A DNA stretch of 5,537 bases from Chloroflexota bacterium (lineage in GTDB: Bacteria > Chloroflexota > Anaerolineae > UBA3071). Position 1 is the stretch's first letter. Every line of letters starts with the position of its first letter. Where the stretch lies: NCBI GenBank assembly GCA_014383605.1, contig JACNHM010000522.1, forward strand, positions 1 through 5,537. Reading direction: 5' to 3'. The position numbers and the translations under genes are program-made. The notes under the pieces were generated by a model that worked only from the letters and a program-made list of their open reading frames with translations, ran no database searches and had not been told where the DNA came from. Below, piece by piece: positions 188 through 5,537 of this stretch.

Positions 188-274
188 GCGACCGCCGCCT
201 GTGCAGAGGTGCGGAGGAGCTGGGGTGCGGAGGTGCTCCCTTGCTCCCCTGCTCCTCTGCTCCCTTGCTCCCCG
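188..274. repeat. GCTCCYYT 8-bp tandem array with 53-bp head module (copy 1, intergenic)
   Basis: Positions 235-274 hold five consecutive 8-bp units of the form GCTCC followed by three variable bases (CTT, CCT, TCT, CTT, CCG). They are preceded by a non-tandem head module; positions 188-240 match 3522-3574 without gaps and with three substitutions (at 199, 218 and 225). The array fills most of the 134-bp gap between the second HlyD adaptor and the DUF2007-type gene, and its last unit ends one base before the adaptor's stop codon (275-277). The plus strand carries no A from 232 to 276, so neither strand can contain a stop codon in that stretch. The function is unknown. Comparable short-period arrays are, to my knowledge, common in some Chloroflexota genomes. 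Confidence 0.9.
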
Positions 275-1615
275 TCACCCCCTCTCCCTAAGCTCCGCGT
301 CGGCGGGCATGCCGGGCTTCAGCGCCAGGTCAGGATTGGGCAGCGTGATGCGCACGGCAAAGACCGTGTTCACCCGCTCTTCCTGCGTCTGCACGCTGCG
401 GGGGGTGAACTCCGCCTGCGGCGCGATGTAGCTGACCTGACCGACGAAGACACGGCCGGGGAACGAGGCGACCGTCACCGCCGCCTCCTGTCCCAAACGC
501 ACCCGACCAATGCGATCCGTGGGCACGTAGACGACCAACTCCACCTGGCTGAGATCGGCGATGGTCAGCAGCGGCATGCCAGGCAAGGCCGTCTCGCCGG
601 CCTCGATCACCTGACTGGTGACCAGCCCGGCCAGGGGGCTGCGCAGCGCCAGCTTGTCCCGCTGCACCTTCAGCAGTTGCAGCGCCGCCTGCGCCTGGCG
701 CACCTGCGCCTCGGCCACGGCCACCGCCTCCGCACGAGGGCCGGCCTGCAGCAGGGCCAGCTCCGCTTGCGCCAGCTCCAGCGCCGCCTCGGCCAGCGTG
801 ACCTGAGACTCGGCGGCGTGCACCTGGGCCTCCAGCGCCAGCGGCTCCTCTCGAATGGCCTCCAGAGCGGCCAGGACCTGCTGAGCACCCGCATAAGCCG
901 CCTGCGCCGCGGCAAGCCGCCCCTGGGCGGCCTCCAGTTGCTTTTCGTAGGCGGCGTGCTCCGTCTTTTCCCGGTCGGAACCGACGGGGTTGCCGCTGTC
1001 GCGCACGATCTCGGCCATTCTCACCGCCGCCCGCGCCTGCTCGACCTGGCGGGCCAGCAGTTGCACCTGGCTGCGGGCGGCGTCAATCTCCGCCGCCAGT
1101 TCCTGCGGATCGTCACGCCTGGCCTCGGCGTTGCGCAGGGCAGTGCGGGCTCCTTCCAACTGCGCTTCGGCCTGGGCCACGGCCGCTTCCGCCGCCTGCA
1201 GTTTCGCCGCGCGAGGACCAGCCCTGGCCTGGGCCAGGTTGGCGCGGGCCACCTCCACTGCCGCCTGCGCCTGGGCCAGGTCGGCCAGCACGTCCGTCTC
1301 GTCCAGTTGCACAAGCCGCGCGCCTGCCGGCACCACGTCTCCCTCCGAAGCGAACAGCGCCGTGACGCGGCCGCTCAGCTCGGCGGCAACGGTCACCTCA
1401 TCAGCCTCGATGGTGCCCGCGGCGACGATGGGGGCGGGGCCGGTGTCCGTTTCGGCCACGCCCAGCCAGCTTGCGGCCCGATTCACCCACGCTTCGGGCA
1501 GGCCCCAGCCGGTGTACAGGGCGCGGGCCTGCGTCGGGGAGCTCCACAGGTACCCGCCCGCGGCGACCATCGCAGCCAGCAGCAGAAGAACGAGAACGGC
1601 GACCGCCCGCTTCAT
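275..1615 (-). CDS. HlyD-family membrane-fusion (periplasmic-adaptor type) protein, second of a tandem pair
   Basis: A 446-residue adaptor that would connect an inner-membrane exporter to the outside. Residues 1-24 form an N-terminal hydrophobic anchor or signal starting MKRAVAVLVLLLLAAMVAAG. The first half of the lipoyl-like barrel-sandwich is at about 67-105 (GTIEADEV, SGRV, EGDVVPAG, QLDETDV). An Ala/Gln/Glu-rich alpha-helical hairpin spans about 106-320, with Pro/Gly breaks near 133, 170, 258 and 293. The second barrel-sandwich half is at 322-355 (RSPLAGLV, EAGE, LLTIADL). A beta-barrel domain runs from 357 to the end, with TPRSVQTQEERV and ALKPGMPADA. It is a paralogue of the gene just upstream, sharing the TPR-x-V-x-TQ-x-ERV and LKPGMPADA signatures. 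Its ATG overlaps the upstream stop codon, and GGAGG lies 7 nt before it, which indicates translational coupling. YbhG/MacA-like ABC-exporter adaptors are the closest named relatives I can suggest. No ABC transporter is in the window, so the substrate cannot be inferred. Confidence 0.93.
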   Translation of the reverse strand: MKRAVAVLVLLLLAAMVAAGGYLWSSPTQARALYTGWGLPEAWVNRAASWLGVAETDTGPAPIVAAGTIEADEVTVAAELSGRVTALFASEGDVVPAGARLVQLDETDVLADLAQAQAAVEVARANLAQARAGPRAAKLQAAEAAVAQAEAQLEGARTALRNAEARRDDPQELAAEIDAARSQVQLLARQVEQARAAVRMAEIVRDSGNPVGSDREKTEHAAYEKQLEAAQGRLAAAQAAYAGAQQVLAALEAIREEPLALEAQVHAAESQVTLAEAALELAQAELALLQAGPRAEAVAVAEAQVRQAQAALQLLKVQRDKLALRSPLAGLVTSQVIEAGETALPGMPLLTIADLSQVELVVYVPTDRIGRVRLGQEAAVTVASFPGRVFVGQVSYIAPQAEFTPRSVQTQEERVNTVFAVRITLPNPDLALKPGMPADAELRERG

Positions 1616-1627
1616 GGACCCGCCTCC
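1612..1627 (-). promoter_or_regulatory. ATGA stop-start overlap with Shine-Dalgarno, coupling the two adaptors
   Basis: The upstream adaptor ends in TGA at 1614-1612 and the downstream one starts with ATG at 1615-1613, a 4-nt overlap. GGAGG at 1627-1623 on the minus strand, inside the last codons of the upstream gene, is 7 nt from the ATG. This arrangement is typical of translational coupling and suggests the two paralogues are made in matched amounts. Confidence 0.9.
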
Positions 1628-3006
1628 GGCTGCGAGAAGTCCGCGTCCGCGGGCATCCCCGGCTTCAACGCGTGGTCAGGATTGGCCAGCGTGATCTCCA
1701 CGCCGAAGACGATCTGCACCCGCTCCTGCTGCGTAGCCACGTTGCGGGGGGTGAACTCCGCCTTGTCGGCGATGCGCGTCACCCGCCCGCCGAAGACGCG
1801 GCCGGGGAAGGAATCGACGCTCACCTGCACATCCTGGCCCACCCGCACCTCCCCCAGCCGGTTCTCGGGCACGTAGACGGTCAGCGTCACCTTGTCCAGG
1901 TCGGCGATCTCCAGCAGCGTGCTGCCGGGCCGCGCCAGTTCCCCCGGATGAAGGGGACAGGCGACCACCAGCCCTGCCCGCGGGGCACGCAGCAGCAGCT
2001 TGTTCTGCCGGACGAGCAGCGCCTGCAGCGCCGCCTGCGCCTGCACCAACCCTGCCTCGGCCTGGGCAATCTGCTCCTGACTGGCCCCCTCCTGCACCGC
2101 CAGCAGCGCCGCCTGAGCAGCCGGCACCGCCGCCTCCGCGCTGCGGAACTGCGCCTCGGCCGCGTCCACCTGCGCCTGCCATTGCTGAGGATCATCCCGC
2201 TGCGCCAGCAAGTGGCTCAACGCCTGCCGGGCACCGCGGAGGGCCTCTTCGGCCTCCTGTTCCGCCTCGTGCGCCTGCCAGGTGCGCTGGCTGGTCAGGT
2301 TCCATTGCAGGTTGGCGGCCTTGATCTTGTCGCCGCCCACGTCCACGTGCACGGTGGTGGTGCCGCCGCCCGGCACGGGCACGTCCACGCCCTCGCTCAG
2401 CAGTTGCACGGTGCGGCCCCAGAATTCCAGCTCCAGATCGGCCGCTTGCGCCTCCGCTCGGGCCGCCACAAGTTGGTGTTCAGCCACTTGCACGTCGCTG
2501 CCGGCGGCGACGATCTGCACGTCCAGGTCCTGGGGATTGTCGCGCAGCGTCTGGGCATCAAGCCAGGCCTGGCGAGCGGCCTCGCGGGCAGCCTCCGCCT
2601 GGGCCACCGCCGCCTGCGCCCGCCGCAGTTCCTCAGGACGGGCCGGAGCCTGGGCCAGCGCGAGCTGGGCCTCGACCACCGCCACGGCCGCCTCCGCCTG
2701 GGCGATCTGTGCGTCCAGCAGCGCCGCGTCGAGCCGCAGCACCGCCTGTCCGGCCCGCACGGCGTCGCCCTCGTCCGCCAGCAGTTGCACGATGCGCCCG
2801 CCGCTCTCCGTGGTCACCGACACCTTGTCCGCTTCGATGGTGCCGGAAGCGAGCAGCCCCCCGGCCTGTGCTGTGGATGTGGATGGATTCAAGCGGGCCA
2901 GAATCGGCTGCACCAGGTCGGGGCGCGCCTGCCAAACCCACCAGGCAGCGTAGCCCGCGGCGGCTAACAGGGCGACGGCGAGTAGCACAAGGATCGTTCG
3001 TTTCAC
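1612..3006 (-). CDS. HlyD-family membrane-fusion (periplasmic-adaptor type) protein, first of a tandem pair
   Basis: A 464-residue adaptor with a GTG start at 3006. An in-frame TGA at 3015-3013 excludes longer forms, and the ATG at 3008 is followed directly by a stop. GAGG sits 4 nt before the GTG, a tight spacing. An N-terminal hydrophobic anchor occupies 1-25 (MKRTILVLLAVALLAAAGYA, then AWWVW). The first barrel-sandwich half is at about 55-93 (GTIEADKV, GGRIVQLLADEGDAVRAG). The helical hairpin is at about 94-336, with breaks near P124, P158, P273 and G307. The second barrel-sandwich half is at about 338-371 (APRAGLVVACPLHPGE, LLEIADL). A beta-barrel follows to the end (VYVPENRLGEV, DSFPGRVFGG, FTPRNVATQQERV, ALKPGMPADA). 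The hairpin tip (about 196-240) is replaced by a Gly/Val/Thr-rich segment, VPVPGGGTTTVHVDVGGDK, absent from the paralogue. It is probably an exporter adaptor; the partner and substrate are unknown. The overlap with the next gene makes joint expression nearly certain. Confidence 0.93.
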   Translation of the reverse strand: MKRTILVLLAVALLAAAGYAAWWVWQARPDLVQPILARLNPSTSTAQAGGLLASGTIEADKVSVTTESGGRIVQLLADEGDAVRAGQAVLRLDAALLDAQIAQAEAAVAVVEAQLALAQAPARPEELRRAQAAVAQAEAAREAARQAWLDAQTLRDNPQDLDVQIVAAGSDVQVAEHQLVAARAEAQAADLELEFWGRTVQLLSEGVDVPVPGGGTTTVHVDVGGDKIKAANLQWNLTSQRTWQAHEAEQEAEEALRGARQALSHLLAQRDDPQQWQAQVDAAEAQFRSAEAAVPAAQAALLAVQEGASQEQIAQAEAGLVQAQAALQALLVRQNKLLLRAPRAGLVVACPLHPGELARPGSTLLEIADLDKVTLTVYVPENRLGEVRVGQDVQVSVDSFPGRVFGGRVTRIADKAEFTPRNVATQQERVQIVFGVEITLANPDHALKPGMPADADFSQPEAGP

Positions 3007-3040
3007 ATTACCTCACGGTGCTTTGGCAACTTGGCAAACT

Positions 3041-3140
3041 AGTGCCGGCATACCAACCAATGTGCCAATGTACCAATCTACCAGCCCACCAATGTACCAA
3101 TTTACCAGCCCACCAACCTACCAGGCACTCAGTGCCGGTA
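3041..3140. repeat. 10-bp direct repeat AGTGCCGGYA flanking a tandem array
   Basis: AGTGCCGGCA at 3041-3050 and AGTGCCGGTA at 3131-3140 lie exactly 90 bp apart and bracket the ACCAATNT array. The similarity extends loosely to the left (GGCAAACT against GGCACTC). The arrangement looks like a target-site duplication. The right copy lies in the last codons of the membrane-protein gene and the left copy in the gap before the first HlyD gene. The single mismatch is a C/T transition. Confidence 0.6.
3056..3127. repeat. ACCAATNT 8-bp tandem array with 24-bp higher-order unit
   Basis: Nine adjacent 8-bp units can be read on the plus strand: ACCAATGT, GCCAATGT, ACCAATCT, ACCAGCCC, ACCAATGT, ACCAATTT, ACCAGCCC, ACCAACCT and a divergent ACCAGGCA. 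Three-unit blocks at 3064-3087 and 3088-3111 differ at only two positions, giving a 24-bp higher-order period. The array fills much of the gap between the first HlyD gene and the membrane-protein gene and overlaps the latter's end: the TAG stop at 3120-3118 comes from a CCTACC junction in the array. Read on the minus strand the units contain TAG and TAA, so the array could not lie inside a gene in that direction. No promoter or terminator is evident within it. Confidence 0.9.
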
Positions 3141-4797
3141 CGATGAAAACGAAGAGGCTGATGAGGTCGAGGATGACCAGGCCGAGGAAGGGCAAGGCGA
3201 AGAGCAACCCGTCAAGCTGGCGCGGCAGCCAGGGGCGGATGAACAGTCCCCCAGCAGCCAGGGCGGAAAGCAGCAGGGGCCACGTGGGCCAGTCGCCCGT
3301 CACCAGGCCAACAACCGCCAGCAGCAGGGCGAGGAGCGCCAGCAGCGCGGCCAGGGCGCGGCTCACCGGTGGCCGCAACACCTCCCGCCAGCCCAGGGAA
3401 AAGCCCAGGCCGAGGGGAATCAGCGCCGGAAAGAGGTAGCGCCCCTGGTGCTGCACGAAAGTGACATTGTACACCAGGTACTGCAACACCGTCCAGCCGA
3501 GCCACACTGCCAGCAGCACCAGCGACCGCCGCTTGTGCAGAGGTGCGGAGGGGCTGGGATGCGGAGGTGCTCCCTCGCTCCTCTGCTCCTCTGCTCCTCT
3601 GCTCCCTTGCTCCTCTGCGCCTTTGCTCCTCTGCTCCCTTGCTCCCCTCACCCACCGTCTGACCACCAGCACCACACTCCCCACCGCCACCAGCCCGGTC
3701 AACAATCCCAACGCCAGATAGATGCGGTTGTCCACGAACACGCCCATCCAGCCGAACACCCCCCAGAAGCTCTTGAAGGAGAAGTCGGCGAAGCGGCGCA
3801 GGAAGTCTCCCCAGCCGTAGTTGACGATCCATTCGGCGGTGCGCGGCTGGCCCACGACGACGGTATCGTGCCAGCGCAGGCCCAGCAGGTCCGGCCAGCC
3901 GTAGACGGCGACGTTGCGCGCGTACCAGGGCAGGGCGATGAGCAGAGCAGGCAAGAGAAGCGCTAGCAGTTGCCGGCCAAGCGAACGGTAGGGCGTGATG
4001 CGTGAAACGTGAAACGTGAAACGTAAAACGTGATGCGTGGTGCGTGGTGCGTGGTGCGTGAGGTGCCAACGCCAGACGGCGGCGACAAGGGCTACGGGCA
4101 CGGCAGCGTAGGCCGTGGTCTTGGTCACCAGCACCAGTCCCAGCACGATGCCCATCAGCACCAAGTCTCCCTTGCTCCTCTGCTCCCCTGCTCCCTTGCT
4201 CCCTTGCCCCCCTGCTCCCCTGCTCCCCTGCGCCTCGGCTCCTTCTGCAACATGCTGCACGGCGAGCAATGCCACCACCGCCAGCAGCAGTTCCGCCAAC
4301 GTGTCGTTCTCCACTCCCGCCGTCATGGCCACGTGCATGGGTACGAAGGCGACGAAGGCCGCCGTGCCCAGCGCCAGGGCGGGCTGCGCGGGGAAGATCG
4401 TCCGCACCAACCGGTAGGCGACCAGCAGCAGCACAGCGCCCAAGGCCACCGAGAGCAGCCGCAGCGCCAGCGGCTGCCCCCCGCTCAGCCAGTACACCGG
4501 CACGGCCAGCAGGTAGTAGAGCGGCGGCTGGTGGGATTCATAGCGGATGGGGTCAATGGGAAGATCCGGCGGGAAGCGACGGGCCTTGATCTCCTCCAGG
4601 TACTCGTGGGGATAATCACCCATCTGCAGGACGGGGAAGCGCCCCGTTTCGGCGAGATGGCGCACGTAGTTGTAATGCGCTGGCTCATCCGGCACCTGCC
4701 AGGCAGGGGTGTAGACGGCGTAGAGAACGCCTATGCCCAGGTAGACCAGGAGGACGACGGCCAGGATCACAGAGGCAGCACCAGTTGTCTTGCCCAT
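3118..4797 (-). CDS. Multi-pass membrane glycosyltransferase-like protein (GT-C fold, GT39/ArnT/DUF2142-like)
   Basis: A 559-residue polytopic membrane protein. TM1 is at about 8-29, followed by an extracytoplasmic loop with PDEPAHYNYV (D37, E38), which resembles the acidic motif of GT-C enzymes that use lipid-linked sugars. Next come YESHQPPLYYLL (86-97), GVENDTLAELL (161-171) and, near the C-terminus, HQGRYLFPALIPL (450-462). About ten further hydrophobic segments are visible. A sugar transfer from a polyprenyl-phosphate donor is inferred from the fold only; donor and acceptor are unknown, and a DUF2142-type label would fit equally well. Three repeat arrays encode loops at about 186-210, 245-271 and 385-421, roughly 90 residues in all. 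The start is placed at 4797, just before TM1. There is no good Shine-Dalgarno, but a TACAAT box 6 nt upstream suggests a leaderless mRNA. The frame stays open upstream to 5148, but that stretch looks non-coding. The stop codon lies in another array. The gene faces the same way as the adaptor genes and is probably co-transcribed with them. Confidence 0.85.
   Translation of the reverse strand: MGKTTGAASVILAVVLLVYLGIGVLYAVYTPAWQVPDEPAHYNYVRHLAETGRFPVLQMGDYPHEYLEEIKARRFPPDLPIDPIRYESHQPPLYYLLAVPVYWLSGGQPLALRLLSVALGAVLLLVAYRLVRTIFPAQPALALGTAAFVAFVPMHVAMTAGVENDTLAELLLAVVALLAVQHVAEGAEAQGSRGAGGQGSKGAGEQRSKGDLVLMGIVLGLVLVTKTTAYAAVPVALVAAVWRWHLTHHAPRTTHHVLRFTFHVSRITPYRSLGRQLLALLLPALLIALPWYARNVAVYGWPDLLGLRWHDTVVVGQPRTAEWIVNYGWGDFLRRFADFSFKSFWGVFGWMGVFVDNRIYLALGLLTGLVAVGSVVLVVRRWVRGAREQRSKGAEEQGSRGAEEQRSEGAPPHPSPSAPLHKRRSLVLLAVWLGWTVLQYLVYNVTFVQHQGRYLFPALIPLGLGFSLGWREVLRPPVSRALAALLALLALLLAVVGLVTGDWPTWPLLLSALAAGGLFIRPWLPRQLDGLLFALPFLGLVILDLISLFVFIVPALSAW
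3522..3648. repeat. GCTCCYYT 8-bp tandem array with 53-bp head module (copy 2, inside the membrane-protein gene)
   Basis: Ten 8-bp units occupy 3569-3648, mostly GCTCCTCT and GCTCCCTT, with one GCGCCTTT. The head module at 3522-3574 matches 188-240 at 50 of 53 positions. The region is translated on the minus strand as a hydrophilic stretch with EEQRSKGA-like octads, then PPHPSPSAPLH, between RRWVRG and KRRSL. These basic residues on both sides place the loop on the cytoplasmic face by the positive-inside rule. The plus strand has no A from 3566 to 3649, so there are no stop codons in any of six frames there. Confidence 0.92.
3994..4063. repeat. CGTGAAA/CGTGGTG 7-bp tandem array inside the membrane-protein gene
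   Basis: Exactly ten 7-bp units can be read: CGTGATG, three CGTGAAA, CGTAAAA, CGTGATG, three CGTGGTG and CGTGAGG. The two homogeneous triplets, each headed by CGTGATG, suggest recent local expansion. On the minus strand it is translated as a His/Thr/Arg-rich loop (HLTHHAPRTTHHVLRF, then TFHVSR) between two hydrophobic segments. The minus strand contains no stop trinucleotide in this stretch in any frame, whereas the plus strand contains TGA in nearly every AAA-type unit, so it can be coding in only one orientation, the one seen here. Confidence 0.93.
4166..4245. repeat. GCTCCYYT 8-bp tandem array (copy 3, inside the membrane-protein gene)
   Basis: About ten 8-bp units lie at 4166-4245, including GCTCCTCT, GCTCCCCT, GCTCCCTT and variants such as GCCCCCCT and GCGCCTCG; the first unit and the last two are degenerate. 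It lacks the 53-bp head module of the other two copies. It is translated on the minus strand as a Gly/Ala/Gln/Ser/Lys-rich loop of about 25 residues (QGSRGAGGQGSKGAGEQRSK) between the helix ending LLAVQHVA and the one beginning DLVLMGIV. The A-free run is 4165-4248, 84 nt, the same length as in copy 2. Confidence 0.9.
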
Positions 4798-5179: not shown

Positions 5180-5537
5180 ATGAAAGCCTATAAGATTTTC
5201 AGCGTGCTGTCCGTACTTCTCGTCGCTCTGCTGATCCTCACCGCCTGCCCGCAACCCACTCCACAGGTCATCGAGGTGCCGAAGGAAGTGGTGGTCGAGA
5301 AGAGGGTGATCGAAACCGTCGAGGTAGTGAAGGAGGTAGCTGTAGAGAAAATCGTTAAAGAGACGGTAATCGTCAAGGAGACGGTGGTGGTAGAGGTCAC
5401 CCCAGCGCCTCCGCCGCAGAAGGTGTTCATCTTCGGCCGCGGTGGTGACTCGGTGCAGCTCGATCCGGCGGTGGTCACTGACGGCGAGAGCTTCCGCGTC
5501 ACCGGCCAGGTCCTGGAGCCCCTCTTCCAGTACGAGG
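5180..5537 (+). CDS. ABC-transporter substrate-binding lipoprotein, family 5 (peptide-type), N-terminal part
   Basis: The first 119 codons are visible; the frame is open at the right edge. The protein starts MKAYKIFSVLSVLLVALLIL and continues T-A-C, a lipoprotein signal peptide with lipobox L20-T21-A22-C23, so the mature protein is lipid-anchored at C23. Residues 30-74 form a linker of V/E/K-rich repeats (VPKEVVVEK, VEVVKEV, VKETVIVKETVVVEV) that would hold the binding domain away from the membrane, followed by PAPPP. The mature domain opens with FGRGGDSVQLDPAVVTDGES and then FRVTGQVLEPLFQYE, the characteristic N-terminus of SBP_bac_5 proteins (DppA/OppA relatives), where the residues around LDPA and the later V-x-x-Q-V-L-E-P-L-F line the lobe-I fold. 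The ligand is probably a peptide or another small solute but cannot be told from this part. It has its own strong promoter and Shine-Dalgarno. Permease and ATPase genes would be expected to the right. Confidence 0.92.
   Translation, partial: MKAYKIFSVLSVLLVALLILTACPQPTPQVIEVPKEVVVEKRVIETVEVVKEVAVEKIVKETVIVKETVVVEVTPAPPPQKVFIFGRGGDSVQLDPAVVTDGESFRVTGQVLEPLFQYE

Follow-up and report, generated by a model that had tools for sequence, protein, structure and literature searches.

What are three tandem arrays of 7- and 8-bp units doing inside one membrane-protein gene: do they form a switch, a working part of the protein, or filler that the protein tolerates? The question arises in a 5,537-bp stretch of Chloroflexota DNA (the window), where a minus-strand gene at 3118-4797 encodes a product of 559 residues. 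Tandem Repeats Finder (TRF) and translation confirmed what a sequence-only reading had described, namely three in-frame arrays of two families within this gene. In loop 1, a single-arm octamer array (4166-4245, minus strand; TRF period 8 at 4167-4242) encodes residues 185-211. The heptamer array of loop 2, with the unit RCGTGRW on the plus strand (3994-4063, minus strand; TRF period 7 at 3993-4061 and period 21 at 3994-4046), encodes residues 245-268. Loop 3 corresponds to a two-arm octamer array (3522-3648, minus strand; identified by TRF and a two-arm scan, with TRF periods of 8/16/32 at 3568-3645 and of 8 at 3535-3570), encoding residues 384-426; in plus-strand order, GTGC-type units at about 3539-3573 are followed by units of the reverse-complement type to about 3648. 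Loops 1 and 3 are translated into G/E/Q/R/K/S-rich and loop 2 into H/R/T-rich sequence, and the three arrays together account for 43+24+27 = 94 of 559 residues, in agreement with the approximately 90 first estimated. The arrays exceed chance: our own detector called one at period 7 and three at period 8 in the window, whereas a single order-3 Markov sequence modelled on the window yielded no array over periods 4 to 24.

A profile search of the host protein matched PF13231 (PMT_2) at 31.1 bits against a cut-off of 26.1. An AlphaFold2 model generated from 120 sequences (mean pLDDT 90.9, pTM 0.92) had as its top Foldseek match ArnT, a GT-C glycosyltransferase (5f15; E 1.8e-5, TM 0.49-0.50, 13% identity), although a family-profile search of PDB sequences returned no match for this protein. 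By profile and model, the host is a predicted PMT_2 / GT39-type protein with a GT-C fold, sugar transfer being a predicted activity only. Kyte-Doolittle windows and the AlphaFold2 model both place the arrays between hydrophobic helices, as the earlier reading had proposed, though the modelled helices continue into array residues 185-192, 201-211, 245-248 and 384-402. The five ten-residue blocks of lowest pLDDT (59 to 74), at 191-200, 251-270 and 401-420, lie in or at the arrays. Counting helices under an ArnT-like GT-C topology, which we take to have an inner N terminus and a conserved PDEP loop outside, the three array loops probably face the cytoplasm.

To compare loops with the remainder of the protein, distances between anchors were measured in an alignment of the window protein and 119 homologues, comprising the 120 matches listed of 3382 passing E 1e-3, minus the window's own protein (P0001). 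Among these listed matches, the array segments showed by far the largest length variation of all segments, with standard deviations of 12.4, 12.0 and 19.4 residues; for the 26 other segments, values were at most 1.3 in 25 and 5.0 in one (524-536). Homologue loops were shorter, longer or occupied by different sequence, and flanking segment lengths were unchanged. Loop sequences varied between subgroups and were often repetitive, including GRWQMAD repeats in P0015, HAIRNTQ-type peptides in P0018, and facing GWKAGRLE / NLPTYQS-type peptides in P0067 and P0072. Peptides of the PSPNPSLPGRG, NPSTGLRTG and PVLSETEG types were also observed in homologue loops, for instance in P0019, P0039 and P0089. 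As these presumably represent translations of other dispersed repeats, the loops seem to accept more than heptamers and octamers.

Loop turnover was also evident among close relatives. In homologue pairs with core identity of at least 0.90, which overlap in members, some loop differed in 27 of 32, and any of 22 core segments in 3 of 32; at core identity of at least 0.95, the corresponding counts were 8/8 and 2/8. At the DNA level, 49 of 64 loci were used, with L038, L050-L052 and L054-L064 excluded beforehand as partial or distant. Within these 49 homologous genes, period-7/8 arrays were found ten times in loops (10,335 bp) and never in the core (61,908 bp), which is about sixfold larger, with other periods from 5 to 12 contributing two arrays in loops and none in the core. 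The homologue alignment, which had been put forward as a check, thus upheld the suggestion that the loops are tolerated filler, with variable lengths and contents between constant flanks.

A different explanation would be that charged or His/Arg-rich loops function in binding, topology or stability, and that the repeats are retained for that purpose. The residue composition of the three loops is compatible with such selected linkers, as is the frequency of polytopic membrane proteins among hosts (see below). Loop sequence, family and length nevertheless turn over, as illustrated by the overlapping set of close pairs above, and several of the homologues listed possess short loops. We regard a selected function as quite improbable.

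Since the units are not multiples of three, phase variation, whereby unit gain or loss turns the protein on and off, was also considered. In silico, changes of one or two units shift the frame and those of three units keep it, as the sequence-only reading had calculated; gain or loss of one or two units yielded products 208 to 533 residues long whose tails were changed. Arguing against a switch are the degeneracy of the units, which should hinder slippage, and the presence of similar arrays in RecQ-type, radical-SAM and molybdopterin-type genes. Further, non-zero loop-length differences at core identity of at least 0.90 were multiples of 7 or 8 residues in 9 of 45 cases, representing no excess over the share of 0.257 expected under a uniform distribution from 1 to 35. 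Phase variation is consequently a very remote prospect for this gene.

The earlier reading had offered selection for three-unit changes as the other reading of the frame arithmetic. If in-gene arrays had grown by three-unit blocks, units 21/24 bp apart (lag 3) would be expected to show high identity. Across the 48 in-gene arrays with at least five units, however, lag-3 identity fell below that at lags 1 and 2 and did not exceed that of intergenic arrays. At period 7, identities at lags 1-3 were 0.870, 0.823 and 0.798 in genes (34 arrays) and 0.865, 0.840 and 0.832 between genes (24 arrays); at period 8, they were 0.863, 0.804 and 0.771 (14 arrays) and 0.847, 0.822 and 0.784 (9 arrays), respectively. 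By this measure, no 21/24-bp block structure was found in the in-gene arrays. As a general rule, then, neither switching nor three-unit selection was upheld by lag identity or by pooled loop-length differences. The part of the three-unit proposal that stood concerns loop 2, with 36, 36, 43, 43 and 50 residues in P0002, P0005, P0003, P0004 and the window, respectively. The differences of 0, 21 or 42 bp among these five nearest proteins constitute an exception that fits three-unit steps and is consistent with growth in place. Related heptamers are present in the DNA of L001 and L002, and comparison of the close relatives P0003 and the L001 gene revealed loops 2 and 3 of equal length and loop 1 differing by 3 residues. 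One in-gene heptamer array, at L165:11092-11179, does display a 21-bp higher-order repeat, visible by eye, in which in-frame TGA is avoided.

Repeats of this kind are numerous in related genomes, both within genes and in the spacers, and the arrays of the host gene therefore look like one instance of a genome-wide habit and not like a switch that this gene has acquired. Six sets were scanned: the window, stretches of four related genomes (G001, G002, G006 and G010), and a further 60 loci that had not been selected for arrays. Stretches of G001, G002 and G010 were picked around pattern matches, and those of G006 partly by contig number. Across the six sets, 130 arrays had periods of 7-8 compared with 4 at periods of 4-6 and 9-13, longer periods being mostly 14, 16, 21 and 24 with few others; order-3 Markov controls of the scanned sets contained no arrays. 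This dominance of periods 7 and 8 corresponds to the tandem degenerate organization of the STRR (short tandemly repeated repetitive) sequences of filamentous cyanobacteria, described in an extract of PMC2670836 as tandem units of about 7 bp, dispersed and hairpin-capable, with their function called unknown.

The octamer pattern occurred in 4 of 10 genomes, at 48, 109, 270 and 59 places, and was absent from the other six; read backwards as a control, it was found at 0, 1, 1 and 21 places in the same four. In these four of ten genomes the octamers are therefore dispersed at many loci, as STRR are. The heptamer pattern was detected in 9 of 10 genomes and reached at least 30 places in only five (32, 151, 228, 52 and 30; backwards 0, 2, 9, 0 and 0), with 14 places in G003 (control 7), 1-2 in three genomes and none in one. 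Phylum-wide, the octamer pattern was identified in 14 of 201 genomes, at 9 or more places in five and at 1-4 in nine. Repeats may be collapsed in MAG assemblies. Among 117 arrays we distinguished 71 consensus units, several being variants of one degenerate family. Variation by transitions only, a possible signature of templating, was ruled out by transition/transversion counts of 176/48 for octamers and 229/136 for heptamers; at fourfold sites of the gene these counts were 50/35 and 40/30, such that only the octamers look biased. At two loci, the arrays adjoin other features: octamer arrays in L150 (near 3069-3183 and 9676) are broken by a different repeat, TTCCTTCGCTTTGCTCAGGACTTCG, common to loci, and in L156 a two-arm array is immediately adjoined, just past 13240, by a run of N that may be an assembly gap due to the repeat.

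By our own crude codon-usage gene calls, 89 of 182 array clusters are in-gene, 41 straddle or adjoin gene edges and 52 are intergenic; unlike STRR, they are thus not mainly intergenic. Vioque (1997) reportedly found one STRR inside an RNase P RNA gene. In-gene status required coding signal in one frame on both sides, and frame-broken alleles for that reason could not appear in the sample. Of the 96 in-gene arrays, 12 contained a stop triplet in any frame when read on the sense strand and 47 when read on the antisense strand (p 5e-8); for the 57 intergenic arrays, the two strands gave 27 and 32. The arrays thus reside in frame within protein genes, a habit known, from an extract of PMC3733652, for the Rickettsia palindromic elements (RPE).

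Host genes were enriched in membrane proteins. In four genomes, six or more transmembrane (TM) segments were predicted for 29 of 53 hosts versus 68 of 588 other genes, and, among proteins of at least 400 residues, for 29/49 versus 39/228 (p 7e-9); hydrophilic arrays themselves lower TM prediction. Arrays fell mostly within a TM window in 3 of 77 cases versus 11.5 expected, a deficit favoured by the arrays' own hydrophilicity. Pfam scanning of 20 of the 53 hosts, drawn in equal numbers from those rich in TM segments and those with at most one, gave no match in two. Membrane hosts identified included PMT_2, YfhO, TMEM260-like and FtsX/MacB proteins, and others included two epimerase-type enzymes, a DegT aminotransferase, two radical-SAM proteins, a molybdopterin oxidoreductase, a heptosyltransferase-type protein and a RecQ-type helicase. 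Heptamer arrays of this helicase (L159:9555-9709, in the minus-strand gene L159:7124-10414; about residues 236-286) fall between its DEAD and Helicase_C domain matches. As for intergenic arrays, a role as terminators was rejected: their flanks were tandem in 35 cases, convergent in 6 and divergent in 3 (8 more lay at stretch ends), with no clear preference relative to comparison gaps (480 tandem, 73 convergent and 108 divergent).

The window also has arrays outside the host gene. A two-arm octamer array at about 188-290 (plus strand; TRF and two-arm scan) lies just 3' of an HlyD-type gene with its stop at 275, and a third array, of an ACCAAT-type octamer, is located between the two genes at 3056-3123 (plus strand; TRF 3056-3107 and 3065-3123). 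The window also contains two HlyD-type membrane-fusion protein genes in tandem (275-1615 and 1612-3006, overlapping by 4 bp) and, at the start of a lipoprotein-like gene (from 5180, plus strand), an 18-bp repeat at 5350-5385 encoding a VVEK/VKET-type linker, which unlike the 7/8-mers is codon-compatible. A segment at 3022-3040, TTTGGCAACTTGGC, can pair with the ACCAAT-type array, and in a predicted RNA fold of 3018-3128 the two sides are paired (z -1.72, a value equalled or bettered by 11 of 200 shuffles). Over the five window stretches folded, z ranged from -0.46 to -1.72 with no clear outliers, and no Rfam family was detected in the window; hairpin formation by the window arrays is possible.

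Ungapped alignment revealed that an 85-bp segment of the intergenic array (188-272, plus strand) has a copy within the host gene (3522-3606, plus strand), identical in 78 of 85 columns (92%) without gaps, including 11 bp outside the units. This 11-mer occurs five times in 995,207 bases, three of them beside an octamer array. The 85-bp query matched 7 of 7 array-bearing genomes among the matches listed, and a looser local search produced spanning matches in 28 loci, some mutually overlapping. Such similarity between loci is weak proof of copying, since mutual likeness is what defines the arrays of a family.

Facing reverse-complement arms were present in 17/52 intergenic, 10/41 edge and 7/89 in-gene clusters, against 1/182 in a swapped-flank control; most in-gene clusters, therefore, are not single palindromic elements of the RPE kind. 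In 60 stretches not chosen with the element, the purine arm came first in 13 two-arm octamer elements and the opposite order in none; GTGC-type units were distributed unequally over the two arms (the observed value was reached in 0 of 2000 shuffles made within elements), and outer ends of TGWGC occurred in 3/26 (control 0). Twenty loci found with the window's own element (L205-L224), counted apart and in some cases overlapping L145-L204, gave the purine arm first in 15 and the opposite order in none, 0/2000 shuffles, and TGWGC ends in 12/30 (control 0). Searches for candidate machinery established no clear link between array abundance and genes for Y1 (RAYT) transposase or reverse transcriptase in 12 genomes. 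The former (PF01797) was found in 10 of 12, being absent from two array-poor ones (G005 and G008), with 1-3 matches per array-rich genome and ten in array-poor G004; reverse transcriptase matches occurred in 10 of 12, with none in heptamer-rich G007.

A tentative possibility, which we rate below even chances, is that a defined non-autonomous mobile element, about 75-130 bp long and composed of two 8-mer arms of unequal size with YTGWGC-type ends, constitutes or gave rise to the octamer arrays, with heptamer families existing in parallel. Such an element would enter genes and spacers, writing in-frame protein segments, with its machinery fixing the unit at 7 or 8 bp. Alternatively, each array may have been born locally from a short seed by replication slippage in place, without copying between loci, in which case families would be shared because seeds recur or because a polymerase favours slips of 7-8 bp. 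The wide unit diversity (even with several of the consensus units being variants of one family), the greater likeness of adjacent than of distant units and the 21-bp steps of loop 2 fit local birth, and a 7-nt polymerase contact has been advanced for heptamer excess in published work (extracts of PMC4679880 and PMC4692102). Local birth is, however, difficult to reconcile with the 11 bp shared outside the units of the 85-bp copy, with the strict order and uneven arms of the octamer elements, and with one two-arm architecture in several genomes, and we consider it unlikely.

Near-strict 7/8 periodicity, residence in length-variable loops, a stop-poor coding strand and directional two-arm octamer elements are the features to be explained. 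In our preferred interpretation, which we consider probable, the three arrays are STRR-like dispersed degenerate 7- and 8-bp tandem repeats tolerated in frame, the loops being filler and not a switch. Arrays would often arrive preformed, through copying, recombination or some mobilization step, and might subsequently change by slippage and point mutation. Selection would purge arrivals that break the frame, bring stops or strike the membrane core, such that survivors would collect in tolerant loops. Counting against the arrival of preformed arrays, no clean empty site of a recent insertion was seen, and shared array flanks were few, mostly repeat-like or overlaps of neighbouring clusters.

The Chloroflexota arrays resemble STRR in their dispersed tandem units of about 7 bp and differ in host, in the presence of octamers besides heptamers, in their many families and in the residence of about half of clusters inside protein genes. 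Heptamer direct repeats at many loci are likewise shared with G-rich heptameric repeats of Xanthomonas and Nostoc, under-represented in coding regions and, in Xanthomonas, occurring as facing pairs in 70 and 75 cases (extract of PMC4692102), and with the TAACTGA repeats of Beggiatoaceae, located mostly upstream of genes (extract of PMC4679880); the Chloroflexota arrays have other units and are common inside genes. In contrast to RPEs, which are single palindromic elements, they consist of tandem 7/8-mers and are two-armed only in part. With phase-variable simple sequence repeats of contingency loci they share an open frame and tandem units not divisible by three, but their units are degenerate and spread over unrelated genes without evidence of switching. 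Short length, dispersal, facing arms and the ends that recur among some octamer elements recall MITE and REP-REPIN sequences, whereas the arms here are built of tandem octamers. Within the phylum, a survey table lists 76 satellites for Chloroflexus aurantiacus (extract of PMC6749651), and more purine/pyrimidine runs are noted for Chloroflexus and Roseiflexus (extract of the PMC4060949 survey). A search of open-licence literature, with most subscription papers outside its scope, uncovered no account of Chloroflexota genes that contain arrays of 7-8 bp units. What is new relative to known heptamers is in-gene residence, comparable heptamers having been described as mainly intergenic.

The gene, then, is one of many that host STRR-like repeats, and most likely it tolerates them as in-frame filler. 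Short tandem repeats in genes with units that are not multiples of three are expected to be rare, according to an extract of PMC4679880; in the sampled genomes they are common in genes, with a coding strand that is open in most cases and with a concentration in genes for membrane proteins. If upheld with proper annotation, these arrays would provide a natural record of insertion-tolerant protein sites and would allow ideas on how 7-8 bp bacterial repeats originate and spread to be tested by strain comparison.
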